Below, one piece after another: positions 54,954 to 59,093 of a DNA stretch of 64,000 nt. Origin of the DNA: a beta proteobacterium AAP65 (GTDB taxonomy: Bacteria > Pseudomonadota > Gammaproteobacteria > Burkholderiales > Burkholderiaceae_C). A program made the translations under genes and the position numbers. Each line of letters starts with the position of its first letter. Within the stretch, counting starts at the first letter, position 1. The notes under the pieces were generated by a model, which searched no databases, was not told where the DNA came from, and worked only from the letters and a program-made list of their open reading frames with translations. Location: positions 1-64,000 of the forward strand of contig LJHW01000009.1 of NCBI GenBank assembly GCA_001295865.1, read 5' to 3'.

Positions 54954-56702
54954 TCACGCCGCGTCGGGCGCCAGCGCCAACCAGGCCTGGTGCTGGCTCA
55001 TGAACACCTGCCCGCTCAGCCCCTGCAGGAAGTCGCTGCGCTGCAGGCGGTCCATCACCGGGCCTTTCACTTCCGACAGGTGCAACTGCACGCCCGCATC
55101 GTGCAGGCGCTGATGGATGGCCTGCAGGCTGTCGAGCGCGCTGGCGTCGATGTCGTTGATGGCCGAGCACTGCAGCAGCACATGGGCCAGCGCCGGCCGC
55201 GAGGCCACTTCATCGTTGATGCGGTCTTCGAGCGCGCGTGCGTTGGCGAAGTACAGGCTTTCGTCCACGCGCAGGCTCAAGACCCGGGGGCTGGTCTGCA
55301 CCGCGTGCCGCAGCACGTTGCGGAAGTGCTCGGTGCCCGGCACCCGGCCCACCTCGGCAATGTGCGGTCGGCTGGTGCGGAACAGAAAAAGCGCCAGCGA
55401 CACGCCCACGCCCAGCACCAGCCCCGCCTCCACACCCAGCAGCAGGGTGCCCGCCAGGGTGGTGGCCACCGCGGCAAAGTCGGGTTTGGACCAACCCCAG
55501 GTGTGCTTGAGCACGCTGAAATCCACCAGCGACAGCACCGCCACCACGATGGTCGCCGCCAGCGTGGCCTGAGGCAGGTAGAACAAGGCCGGCGTGAGGA
55601 AAAGTGAAGCCAGCAGCAGGCCCAAGGCGGTGTAGACACCGGCTGCCGGCGTCTGCGCACCGGCGTCGAAGTTCACCACCGAGCGCGCGAAACCGCCCGT
55701 CACGGGCAAGCCCCCGGTGAAGGCGGCGCCCACGTTGCTGGCCCCCAGCGCCACCAGTTCCTGGTCGGGTTCGATGCGCTGTCGGCGCTTGGCCGCCAGC
55801 GTCTGGCCCACCGACACCGATTCGACGAAGCCCACCACGCTGATCAGCAGCGCCGGCAAGAGCAGCGGCTGCCATACCGCGATCTCGAAACTCGGCAGCG
55901 TCAGCGGCGGCAGGCCCTGCGGCACGTGGCCCACCACTTTCAGGCCCTGGGCCTGCCAATCCAGCGCCCAGCTCAAGGTGGCCGTGGCGGCGATGGCCGC
56001 CACCGGTCCCGTCTTGGCCAGCACATCGGCCAGGCGCGGTGCCAGCCCCAGGCCCAGCAGGGCCGGCTTCAAGCCTTGGCGCGCCCAGAACAGGAAGGCC
56101 AGGGTCGACAGGCCCACCACGGCCGTCAAGCCGTGCAACTCGGGCAGCTGCCGCGCCAACGCGCCCAGCAGCGCGAGGAAATCGTGGCCCTGCGCCGGAA
56201 TGCCGAGCAGGGTCTTCAACTGGCTGGCGGCGATCAGCAGGCCCGACGCAGTGATGAAACCCGAGATGACCGGGTGGCTCAGGAAATTCGCCATGAAGCC
56301 CAGGCGCAGCAGGCCCATGGCCAGCAGCATCAGCCCCGAAATCAGCGCCAGCACCAGTGCCAGGCCGGCATAGGCGGGCGTGCCTGCCTGCGCCAATTCA
56401 CCCAGCGTGGTGGCCGTCATCAGCGACACCACCGCCACCGGCCCTACCGCCAGAACGCGGCTGCTGCCGAACACGGCGTACAGCAGCAAGGGCGCCACGC
56501 TGGCGTAGAGCCCGGCTTCTGGCGGCAGACCCGCCAGCATGGCGTAGGCCAGGCTCTGCGGGATGAGCATGATGGTGACGATGACGGCCGCGAGGCCGTC
56601 GCTCACCAAGGTCTCGCGCCGGTACTCGCGGCCCCACTGCAGCACCGGCAAGGCCGGCAGCCAGCGGCCGATGCCGGTGGGCGCCCTCGGGCCGGACTTC
56701 AC
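54954..56702 (-). CDS. SulP-family anion transporter with STAS domain
   Basis: A 582-residue inner-membrane transporter, with ten or more hydrophobic segments from residue 30 to about 430 (SulP motif IVTIMLIPQSLAYAMLAGLPPEAGLYAS) and a C-terminal cytoplasmic STAS domain (LSLRVDESLYFANARALEDR). It probably moves sulfate or a related anion. GTG start at 56702 overlaps the stop of the YeeE-type gene (GTGA). Last gene of the repressor-led operon. Confidence 0.92.
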   Translation of the reverse strand: MKSGPRAPTGIGRWLPALPVLQWGREYRRETLVSDGLAAVIVTIMLIPQSLAYAMLAGLPPEAGLYASVAPLLLYAVFGSSRVLAVGPVAVVSLMTATTLGELAQAGTPAYAGLALVLALISGLMLLAMGLLRLGFMANFLSHPVISGFITASGLLIAASQLKTLLGIPAQGHDFLALLGALARQLPELHGLTAVVGLSTLAFLFWARQGLKPALLGLGLAPRLADVLAKTGPVAAIAATATLSWALDWQAQGLKVVGHVPQGLPPLTLPSFEIAVWQPLLLPALLISVVGFVESVSVGQTLAAKRRQRIEPDQELVALGASNVGAAFTGGLPVTGGFARSVVNFDAGAQTPAAGVYTALGLLLASLFLTPALFYLPQATLAATIVVAVLSLVDFSVLKHTWGWSKPDFAAVATTLAGTLLLGVEAGLVLGVGVSLALFLFRTSRPHIAEVGRVPGTEHFRNVLRHAVQTSPRVLSLRVDESLYFANARALEDRINDEVASRPALAHVLLQCSAINDIDASALDSLQAIHQRLHDAGVQLHLSEVKGPVMDRLQRSDFLQGLSGQVFMSQHQAWLALAPDAA

Positions 56703-57136
56703 GCCTGGGCCGAGAGCCGGCGTTGCCGGAGGTGCTCCAAGGCCTCGAACAGCAGCATGCCGCCGACCATGGCCCCGACGAACGCCGCCGCTTTGGGTTC
56801 ACCCGAAGCCAGCGACACCAGCCCAGGTCCGGGGCAGAAACCCGCCAGGCCCCAGCCCACGCCGAAGGTGACGGCGCCCAGCACCAGGCGATGGTCGATG
56901 TCGTTCGACGTCGGCAGGTGCATGGCCCCACCGAAGAAGGCCCGGGTGCGTTTGGCCGCCAGCGCGAAGGCGAAGAAGCCCACCGCGATGGCGCCCCCCA
57001 TCACAAACGCCAAGGAAGGATCCCAGGCGCCGAAAAGATCCAGGAAGCCCAGCACCTTGCTGGGATCGGTCATGCCGGACAGCAGCAAGCCCAGCCCGAA
57101 GAGCAGGCCGACGATGAACTCGGAAACGCGGTGCAT
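56699..57136 (-). CDS. YeeE/YedE-type half-transporter (DUF6691)
   Basis: A 145-residue membrane protein with four hydrophobic segments and GFCPGPGLVSLASGE, the Cys-containing counterpart of the YeeE/YedE (TsuA-like) repeat. With the neighbouring 57148 gene it rebuilds a full two-half transporter of sulfur compounds, perhaps thiosulfate. It follows that gene by 11 bases and overlaps the SulP gene. Confidence 0.85.
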   Translation of the reverse strand: MHRVSEFIVGLLFGLGLLLSGMTDPSKVLGFLDLFGAWDPSLAFVMGGAIAVGFFAFALAAKRTRAFFGGAMHLPTSNDIDHRLVLGAVTFGVGWGLAGFCPGPGLVSLASGEPKAAAFVGAMVGGMLLFEALEHLRQRRLSAQA

Positions 57137-57147
57137 CACAGGGCTCC

Positions 57148-57585
57148 TCACAGCAGGTGGCGGACGGCGAACACGACGGCAAAACCCGCAGCCATGAAGC
57201 TCAAGGTCGCCACCAGCGAGCGTGGCGACAGCCGCGACAGGCCGCACACACCATGGCCGCTGGTGCAGCCGGCGCTGTAGCGCGTGCCGACACCGACCAA
57301 CAGCCCCGCCACCACCACCAGCCCGAAACTGGCGTCGATGCGTGGCGCCGAAGCAAAACCGGCCGGGGCCAAGAAGCCGTAGACCAGGGGCGCGGCCAGC
57401 AGACCCGCGAGAAAGGCCAGGCGCCAGCCGGCGTCGCCCGCGCGCGGCCGCAGCAGGCCGCCGAGGATGCCGCTGATACCCAGCACGCGGCCGTTCAGCA
57501 GGATAAACAGGGCCGAGGCCACGCCCAGCAGCACGCCGCCGGCCAGCGAGGCCCAAGGGGTGAAATGGGTCCAGTCGATCGTCAT
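57148..57585 (-). CDS. YeeE/YedE-type half-transporter
   Basis: A 145-residue membrane protein with the family motif YSAGCTSGHGVCGLSRLSPRSLVAT. The two Cys lie at the same helical turn as the thiosulfate-path cysteines of TsuA relatives. ATG 57585 is chosen; it follows the repressor gene by 13 bases. It is the first transporter half. Confidence 0.87.
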   Translation of the reverse strand: MTIDWTHFTPWASLAGGVLLGVASALFILLNGRVLGISGILGGLLRPRAGDAGWRLAFLAGLLAAPLVYGFLAPAGFASAPRIDASFGLVVVAGLLVGVGTRYSAGCTSGHGVCGLSRLSPRSLVATLSFMAAGFAVVFAVRHLL

Positions 57586-57598
57586 TGTTGTCACTCTC

Positions 57599-57925
57599 TC
57601 AGGCAATGGAAGGTTGGCAGAACTGGCTGTAGAGCATCTGCATCACGGCGCGTGCGCGCTCGCTGCTGAGGCGGTAATGGATGTGCTTGCCTTCGCGCCG
57701 CGTGGCCACCAGCCCCTCGTCGCGCAGCACGCCCAACTGCTGCGACAAGGTGGGCTGCACGATGCCCAGCGCCGCCTCCAGATCGCTGGGGCAGCGCTCG
57801 CCTTCGGCGAGTTGGCACAGCAGCAGCAGGCGGTCGGGGTTGGCCAGCACCTTCATCAGGCGGCAGGCCTCGGCCGCAGCGGCGCGCATGGTGTCGATAT
57901 CGATGGTGGCGGCTTCGCTTCGCAT
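57599..57925 (-). CDS. bigR: BigR/SqrR-type ArsR-family persulfide-sensing repressor
   Basis: A 108-residue winged-helix repressor. RLMKVLANPDRLLLLCQLAEGERCPSDLEAALGI and VQPTLSQQLGVLRDEGLVATRREGKHIHYRL are the ArsR DNA-binding parts. Cys37 and Cys103 are 66 residues apart, the same spacing as the tetrasulfide-forming pair I recall for SqrR (41/107) and BigR (42/108). A third Cys45 is extra. ATG 57925 is used; TTG 57985 would add 20 residues. First gene of the operon, divergent from the persulfide dioxygenase. Confidence 0.86.
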   Translation of the reverse strand: MRSEAATIDIDTMRAAAAEACRLMKVLANPDRLLLLCQLAEGERCPSDLEAALGIVQPTLSQQLGVLRDEGLVATRREGKHIHYRLSSERARAVMQMLYSQFCQPSIA

Positions 57926-57994
57926 AGGGGGGGTCAGGGGCGCAGGCAAGCGGGGTGACGGCTGGCGAAAACAGGACGACAGCAAACGCCGGAG

Positions 57995-58039
57995 TCATCA
58001 CTATATTGACGGATATATTGTTTGTCAATATAGTGATGA
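57995..58039. promoter_or_regulatory. Perfect inverted repeat with two face-to-face promoters
   Basis: Arms TCATCACTATATTGAC and GTCAATATAGTGATGA (16 bases each, perfect) flank a 13-base loop. On the plus strand TTGACG (58006-58011) and TATAGT (58029-58034) have a 17-base spacer; on the minus strand TTGACA (58028-58023) and TATAGT (58005-58000) also have a 17-base spacer. One repressor site would shut both the dioxygenase and the repressor-transporter operon. Confidence 0.82.
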
Positions 58040-58067
58040 TCACTGATATACGGATGGAGTCCGCAAC

Positions 58068-58946
58068 ATGACCACTGCTGAACACACCGCCCCGCAGGTG
58101 CACGGGCTCTTCGACCCCGCCACCTGGACCGTTACCTATGTCGTGCACGCGGGCCCAGGCAGCACCTGCGCCATCATCGATTCGGTGCTCGACTACGACC
58201 CCAAGTCAGGCCGCACCAGCCATGCCTCGGCCGACCAGGTCATCGACTACGTGCGCAAGCTCGATCTGAAGGTGGCCTGGATCCTGGAGACCCATGCGCA
58301 TGCCGACCACCTGACCGCGGCGCCCTACCTGAAGGCCCAGCTCGGCGGGCGCATCGGCATCGGCCACCGCATACAGACCGTGCAGAAGGTCTTCAAAGGG
58401 CTGTTCAACCTCGAAGCTGGTTTCGCGGAGGACGGCTCGCAGTTCGACCATCTGTTCGAAGACGGCGAGTCTTTCGCCATCGGCACGCTCACGGGCGAAG
58501 TGATGGCCGTGCCCGGACACACACCGGCCTGCGTGGCCTACCGTGTCGGCGACGCCGTCTTCACGGGCGACACAATCTTCATGCCCGACGTTGGCACGGC
58601 GCGCTGCGATTTTCCGGGCGGCGACGCGCGCACGCTGTACCGCTCGGTGCGGCGGCTGCTCGCATTGCCCGACACGACGCGGCTGTTTTTGTGCCACGAC
58701 TACCCGCCTGCCGGGCGCACGGTAAATTTCGAAACCACCGTGGCCGAACAGCGCGCGAAGAACATCCACGTGCACGACGGCGTCAGCGAAGCTGACTTCG
58801 TCTCCATGCGCACGCAGCGTGACGCCACGCTGGCCATGCCCACGCTCATCCTGCCGGCCGTGCAACTCAACATCCGCGCCGGCGAAATGCCCCCCACGGA
58901 AGACAACGGCGTGGCTTACCTGAAGATCCCGCTCAACGCCTTGTGA
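58068..58946 (+). CDS. blh: Persulfide dioxygenase, ETHE1/Blh-type MBL-fold enzyme
   Basis: Metallo-beta-lactamase fold hydrolase of 292 residues. Iron ligands are in ETHAHADHLTAAPYL, VPGHTPACVAYRVGD, FTGDTIFMPDVGTARCDFPGGDA and LFLCHDYPPAGR. The family oxidises glutathione persulfide to sulfite. It has no fused rhodanese domain. It is divergent from bigR and shares its promoter palindrome. Confidence 0.88.
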   Translation: MTTAEHTAPQVHGLFDPATWTVTYVVHAGPGSTCAIIDSVLDYDPKSGRTSHASADQVIDYVRKLDLKVAWILETHAHADHLTAAPYLKAQLGGRIGIGHRIQTVQKVFKGLFNLEAGFAEDGSQFDHLFEDGESFAIGTLTGEVMAVPGHTPACVAYRVGDAVFTGDTIFMPDVGTARCDFPGGDARTLYRSVRRLLALPDTTRLFLCHDYPPAGRTVNFETTVAEQRAKNIHVHDGVSEADFVSMRTQRDATLAMPTLILPAVQLNIRAGEMPPTEDNGVAYLKIPLNAL

Positions 58947-58975: not shown

Positions 58976-59005
58976 AAAGCCCGGTGTCGTGAGACACCGG
59001 GCTTT
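58976..59005 (+). terminator. Terminator after the persulfide dioxygenase gene
   Basis: AAAGCCCGGTGTC and GACACCGGGCTTT form a perfect 13-base-pair stem with a GTGA loop, 29 bases past the stop. A-run and T-run on the two sides let it act in both directions, so it may also end the tRNA-Pro transcript. Confidence 0.85.
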
Positions 59006-59015
59006 GCCGTTTCTA

Positions 59016-59093
<78 letters not shown>

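Follow-up and report, generated by a model that had tools for sequence, protein, structure and literature searches.

The 64,000-nucleotide stretch of DNA analysed here (the window) carries, between a gene for a BigR-like regulator and a divergent gene for a persulfide-dioxygenase-like protein (pdo), a conserved pair of interlocked predicted promoters with a predicted BigR operator that sits off-centre and, in relatives, is found on either side of the axis. Our joint reading, which we consider probable, is that the two promoters diverge and that BigR would shut both from this one off-axis site; template switching, as the process that shapes the element, is its less confident part. A preliminary description of this DNA had proposed two promoters, a BigR-like regulator, one operator and a dioxygenase-like gene, and these are retained below as predictions, while its head-on orientation of the promoters, its reading of the symmetry and its claim of rarity are given up.

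Two predicted promoters interlocked within a palindrome

The regulator (Table 1) has an ArsR-type winged helix (HTH_5, 53 bits), and its best match in the PDB is BigR (3pqj, E 1.3e-23). Its Cys37 and Cys103 align with the BigR/SqrR cysteine pair and both are invariant in 11 relatives, giving it, with the winged helix, the two conserved cysteines of the BigR/SqrR dithiol persulfide sensors. Against the NCBIfam BigR equivalog NF040642 it scores 105.1 bits, under the cut-off of 155, and it is therefore named BigR-like rather than proven BigR. The protein encoded opposite scores 400.7 bits against the equivalog for bifunctional Blh (sulfurtransferase plus dioxygenase; NF040641), under the cut-off of 625, and covers only positions 137-423 of the 423 in that profile, which is the dioxygenase part. 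By sequence, the adjacent BigR/SqrR-type regulator and the opposing persulfide dioxygenase of the preliminary description are supported as BigR/SqrR-like and persulfide-dioxygenase-like. Within the likely bigR operon, the Sulf_transp and DUF6691 genes (56699-57606, minus strand) form a split sulfur-transport-like pair. Just 3' of the dioxygenase gene, a GC-rich inverted repeat with a T-run, seen by eye at 58977-59005, is a likely terminator before a tRNA-Pro (ggg) gene at 59016-59092 on the minus strand; past this gene, on the same strand, ORFs resembling a MerR-type regulator, IHF/HU and pheT/pheS were also noted by eye.

Table 1. Features at the bigR-pdo locus, in window coordinates
Feature	Position	Strand	Details
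SulP-type anion transporter with STAS domain	54954-56702	-	probably bigR operon (co-transcription presumed)
DUF6691 protein	56699-57139	-	205 bits; probably bigR operon (co-transcription presumed)
Sulf_transp-domain membrane protein	57148-57606	-	probably bigR operon (co-transcription presumed)
BigR/SqrR-like ArsR-family regulator	57599-57925	-	108 aa; profile and structure-sequence matches
Perfect palindrome	57995-58039		arms 57995-58010 and 58024-58039, centre 58011-58023, axis 58017
Predicted BigR operator (10-6-10 dyad)	57997-58022	.	22.5 bits; 7.5 bp left of axis
Predicted bigR-operon promoter	58000-58028	-	-35 TTGACA 58028-58023, 17 nt, -10 TATAGT 58005-58000
Predicted dioxygenase-gene promoter	58006-58034	+	-35 TTGACG 58006-58011, 17 nt, -10 TATAGT 58029-58034
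Weaker mirror match of operator motif	58012-58037	.	10.0 bits; common centre
Persulfide-dioxygenase-like metallo-beta-lactamase-fold protein	58068-58946	+	292 aa; profile matches

The intergenic palindrome consists of two 16-nt arms, 100% complementary, around a 13-nt spacer. With up to 3 mismatches allowed, its pattern has a single match in the window and none in 100 dinucleotide shuffles, and the perfect arms noted earlier are thus confirmed; TTGAC-N13-GTCAATANNNT, with 1 mismatch allowed, has no other match in the 4.84-Mb genome. A sigma70 scan of 57900-58100 returned two sites, one per strand, where 0.1 were expected from 50 shuffles. They agree with the consensus at 10 of 12 positions (plus strand) and 11 of 12 (minus strand), and bear out the -35 and -10 elements with a 17-base spacer that had been described on each strand. 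The rightward -35 adjoins the leftward -10 and the leftward -35 adjoins the rightward -10, so that each arm holds the five bases TTGAC and a -10 hexamer. The view that the palindrome is simply the overlay of two promoters holds for these 11 of the 16 arm bases and fails for the remaining 5, which lie outside the promoters.

If both predicted promoters fire, as we infer from these matches, transcription would be expected to start near 58041 (plus) and 57993 (minus), about 48 bp apart, and the same start positions given previously are consistent with this geometry. Both polymerases would run outward; the promoters are therefore divergent and interlocked, and not head-on as had been stated. Because both use the same 29-35 bp, mutual exclusion of the polymerases is expected, and there is likely room for one RNA polymerase at a time. 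A repeat of this kind might instead be a hairpin or terminator with no promoter function, and as single-stranded DNA it does fold well (-14.4 kcal/mol, z -5.4). Its stem, however, is AT-rich, has no T-run and lies upstream of both genes, and a hairpin would not need the positions that are kept, namely TTGAC and TA.A.T with a constant 17 nt between them, which makes this explanation very improbable.

Conservation of the layout and position of the predicted operator

Loci for comparison were collected by searching with BigR or dioxygenase proteins and by searching for the pattern. We left out bigR loci below 48% identity and plasmid-borne bigR loci, and removing 13 loci whose intergenic stretch duplicated another reduced the 96 divergent bigR-pdo loci to 83, of which 13 had been fetched by pattern and hence selected for their arms. 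The layout was scored as present where the two -35 elements (9 or more of their 10 bases) and the two -10 elements (A2, T6) stood in the geometry of the window. It occurs in 58 of the 83 distinct divergent loci and in 0 of 4150 shuffled regions. Such symmetry had been called seldom seen; without the pattern-fetched loci the same layout is present in 46 of 70, which contradicts that claim for divergent bigR-pdo loci. The 25 divergent loci that lack it mostly have a more distant BigR, and at 48-60% identity the layout is found in 2 of 11.

The spacing is narrowly defined, an exact TTGAC-N-GTCAA having a gap of 13 in 54 of the 83 regions and none of the remaining gaps between 0 and 30 being seen in more than 2. 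Across 399 genomes of the family, TATTGACN{3,30}GTCAATA gave 75 matches in 63 genomes, of which 24 have a gap of 13, no other gap accounting for more than 5; 21 of the gap-13 matches are at bigR-pdo loci and 3 elsewhere (L178, L181, L182). Order-wide, a gap-13 match occurs in 13 of 399 genomes, in 8 cases at a bigR or pdo gene, one of these being the window. Among 36 bigR loci without a divergent pdo (that is, with no pdo match within 450 bases in the available stretch, some of these loci being near contig ends), TTGAC-N13-GTCAA was found in none of the upstream stretches scanned, usually 150 bases long. This indicates that the interlocked pair goes with the divergent arrangement, and that BigR needs no such repeat. 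As a separate observation, TATTGAC-N13-GTCAATA occurs with no bigR or dioxygenase gene in the available stretch in L178, L181, L182, L185, L186, L188, L194 and L195; the spacers of L181, L185 and L194 are similar and perhaps represent one coding motif.

The bigR genes without a divergent pdo also supplied the operator motif. Five of the 36 were dropped (L049, L050, L051, L053, L162) and 2 near-duplicates were removed inside the search, leaving 29 upstream regions for training. From these, expectation maximisation constrained to symmetric motifs yielded a dyad of 26 bp, AACAWTATAT-N6-ATATAWTGTT (10-6-10), whose half-sites have their centres 16 bp apart; its core was unchanged when the constraint was lifted. 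This motif replaced our first guess, ATATTG-N5-CAATAT with the nearer arm. In the window its best match and the weaker mirror match (Table 1) compare with a 99th percentile of 3.9 bits for shuffled maxima, and the consensus with 3 mismatches allowed has one match in the 4.84-Mb genome, inside the palindrome. The predicted operator takes up the left arm and the centre, lying over the -10 of the leftward promoter and the -35 of the rightward one; the window thus offers three half-sites (arm, centre, arm), with the centre oriented one way. Across the 58 double-promoter loci the best match lies at +7.5 bp from the axis in 41, at -7.5 bp in 16 and at +22.5 bp in 1. In this last locus, that of Limnobacter litoralis (L100), the match is a second, stronger one (25.1 bits) beside the double promoter, 22.5 bp right of the axis.

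The preliminary description had a dimeric repressor reading the palindrome's own symmetry. Were the whole palindrome the operator, with one dimer or two on the symmetric arms and the promoters overlapping it, the perfect symmetry, the half-site-like sequence in both arms and the mirror site of 10.0 bits would all be accounted for. Against this, the motif derived from other bigR loci lands off-axis, 7.5 bp to the right or left, in 57 of the 58 loci, and the repeat is missing upstream of the bigR genes that lack a divergent pdo; we regard this alternative as unlikely. Since the motif is off-axis in the window as well as in relatives, the axis of the palindrome appears to be that of the promoter pair and not that of the repressor site, and the predicted operator uses one arm plus the spacer. 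What survives of the earlier proposal is a single site for both promoters, because the one predicted operator overlaps elements of each, so that one off-axis BigR dimer would be placed to silence both. Under the reading we prefer, a BigR dimer at this site would keep the dioxygenase gene and the bigR operon silent by blocking both promoters, and persulfide would release it and free both directions. Release by persulfide is known for BigR/SqrR relatives, and it would be expected here too of a BigR dimer at the predicted operator.

Arm likeness and operator side in relatives

With less confidence, we infer that template switching, which fits both traits, may explain the likeness of the arms and the changes of operator side. 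A template switch during replication would copy one arm onto the other, by which the arms would stay alike, or would invert the spacer, by which the operator would change side; given the symmetry of the promoter pair, the switch would go on working with its spacer inverted. The palindrome would then be a self-renewing and self-inverting element, in which arms are kept alike and the spacer is flipped in single steps, the repressor site jumping between the two -10 elements with the switch intact, a proposal that we put forward tentatively and hold at somewhat below even confidence. The same promoters and off-centre operator could also have evolved otherwise, with selection for balanced -10 strengths keeping the arms alike and point mutations moving the operator from side to side. 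This second account is possible, though we are inclined to doubt it, and the evidence below bears on both.

Arm positions fixed by the promoters are uninformative on symmetry. The 58 loci were chosen by their -35 elements and by A2 and T6 of the -10, and not by -10 positions 3 and 5, which are free to vary. After L177, whose sequence equals that of L117, had been dropped, these two positions pair within the 57 remaining loci at 0.75 and 0.60, compared with 0.35 across loci; without the pattern-fetched loci (n = 46) the values are 0.76 versus 0.36 and 0.61 versus 0.32. When independent evolution was simulated on a tree of the 57 loci (IQ-TREE, BigR plus dioxygenase), the pairing at the first position was reached in 0 of 2000 runs, and for the second position P was 0.0055 and 0.0075 on two trees. 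In 31 of 57 loci the two -10 elements have the same sequence.

Over all loci the -10 strengths correlate (rho 0.66), which favours selection for balance. Among the 26 loci with unlike -10 elements they do not (rho 0.15, P 0.46; strength weights from general background), which speaks against it. Also against it, arms of at least 16, which extend past the promoters, are present in 6 of 57 loci, where simulations that kept the inner positions as they are give 0.28 on average and reach 6 in 0 of 5000 runs. On the other side, changes between close relatives mostly affect a single arm, which favours this account and counts against copying: in 19 disjoint close pairs, the -10 positions show 7 one-sided changes, 2 two-sided changes that pair and 2 two-sided changes otherwise, and the corresponding figures for the outer positions are 77, 3 and 22. 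Also counting against copying, outer arm positions pair weakly when taken one by one, and at 0.56 versus 0.42 (P 0.068) in loci with alike -10 elements. Some individual arms may be mentioned here. L193, a bigR-pdo locus in another family of the order and outside the tested set, has 19-base arms at about 1489-1539; the bigR-pdo intergenic regions of the close relatives L073 and L170 have perfect arms of 21 bases, and in both arms the outer bases are not the same in the two species; and L072 and L129, which are relatives of these two, have broken arms.

The operator side is clear in 46 loci, being right in 36 and left in 10. On the tree, 5 changes of side are needed, 4 of them forced by starred branches, compared with 9.2 for shuffled labels. 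In many loci the motif scores higher than in shuffled sequence on each side of the axis, so that drift between sides would be easy, in line with point mutation. Standing against point mutation is one pair of loci from a single genus, L015 and L180, whose BigR proteins are 93% identical and whose spacers agree at 11 of 13 positions as reverse complements and at 6 of 13 directly; L180 has no clear operator side, and the search for close relatives with opposite sides covered 2 genomes of this genus. Weighing against template switching, this is the only inverted-looking spacer among 51 pairs closer than 0.35, and how similar spacers of opposite side are depends hardly at all on relatedness (rho -0.12). 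Inverted-looking spacers and side changes may also have come from convergence on the operator motif.

Significance and relation to known systems

If our reading is correct, two full promoters within the same 35 bp, together with one operator over both, would be a very compact way of coupling a detoxifying enzyme with its repressor. This would also expose a trap for motif finding, since a repressor gene can have a perfect palindrome next to it that is not the site of the repressor. Were the arms in fact kept alike by copying, these loci would provide a natural case of a mutational mechanism that shapes and moves a bacterial operator. Our literature search, which had most subscription journals beyond its reach, found no report of the interlocked layout or of operator inversion.

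The closest relatives of the regulatory part are the persulfide-sensing ArsR-family repressors BigR, SqrR and YgaV, with which the window shares the two aligned cysteines and a repressor gene beside a dioxygenase gene. YgaV is reported to bind its own promoter over the sites used by RNA polymerase, and the SqrR site is given as ATTC-N8-GAAT (PMC9774250). Compared with that SqrR site, the motif found here, AACAWTATAT-N6-ATATAWTGTT, is different and lies off-axis in an interlocked promoter pair.

The promoter pair itself recalls the bacterial bidirectional promoters of Warman, Grainger and colleagues, which share a -10 element and have starts 7-25 bp apart, mostly 18 (PMC12825309, PMC10268837), and in which symmetric DNA gives divergent transcription by polymerases that should exclude each other (PMC12825309). 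The window pair resembles them in its symmetric DNA, its divergent direction and its expected mutual exclusion. It falls outside their definition, however, since unlike a shared -10 it has two separate -10 elements, which flank two inner -35 elements, and its predicted starts are about 48 bp apart. For the evolutionary part, template switching has been described (PMC8604942) as homogenising the arms and inverting the spacers of repeats with arms longer than 9 bp, and alike arms with inverted spacers are what we propose for bigR-pdo loci. The cases covered there are coding genes of yeast, in which 2-5 bases of the spacer change, whereas in the window the spacer has 13 bases and, if the proposal holds, its inversion would move an operator half-site.
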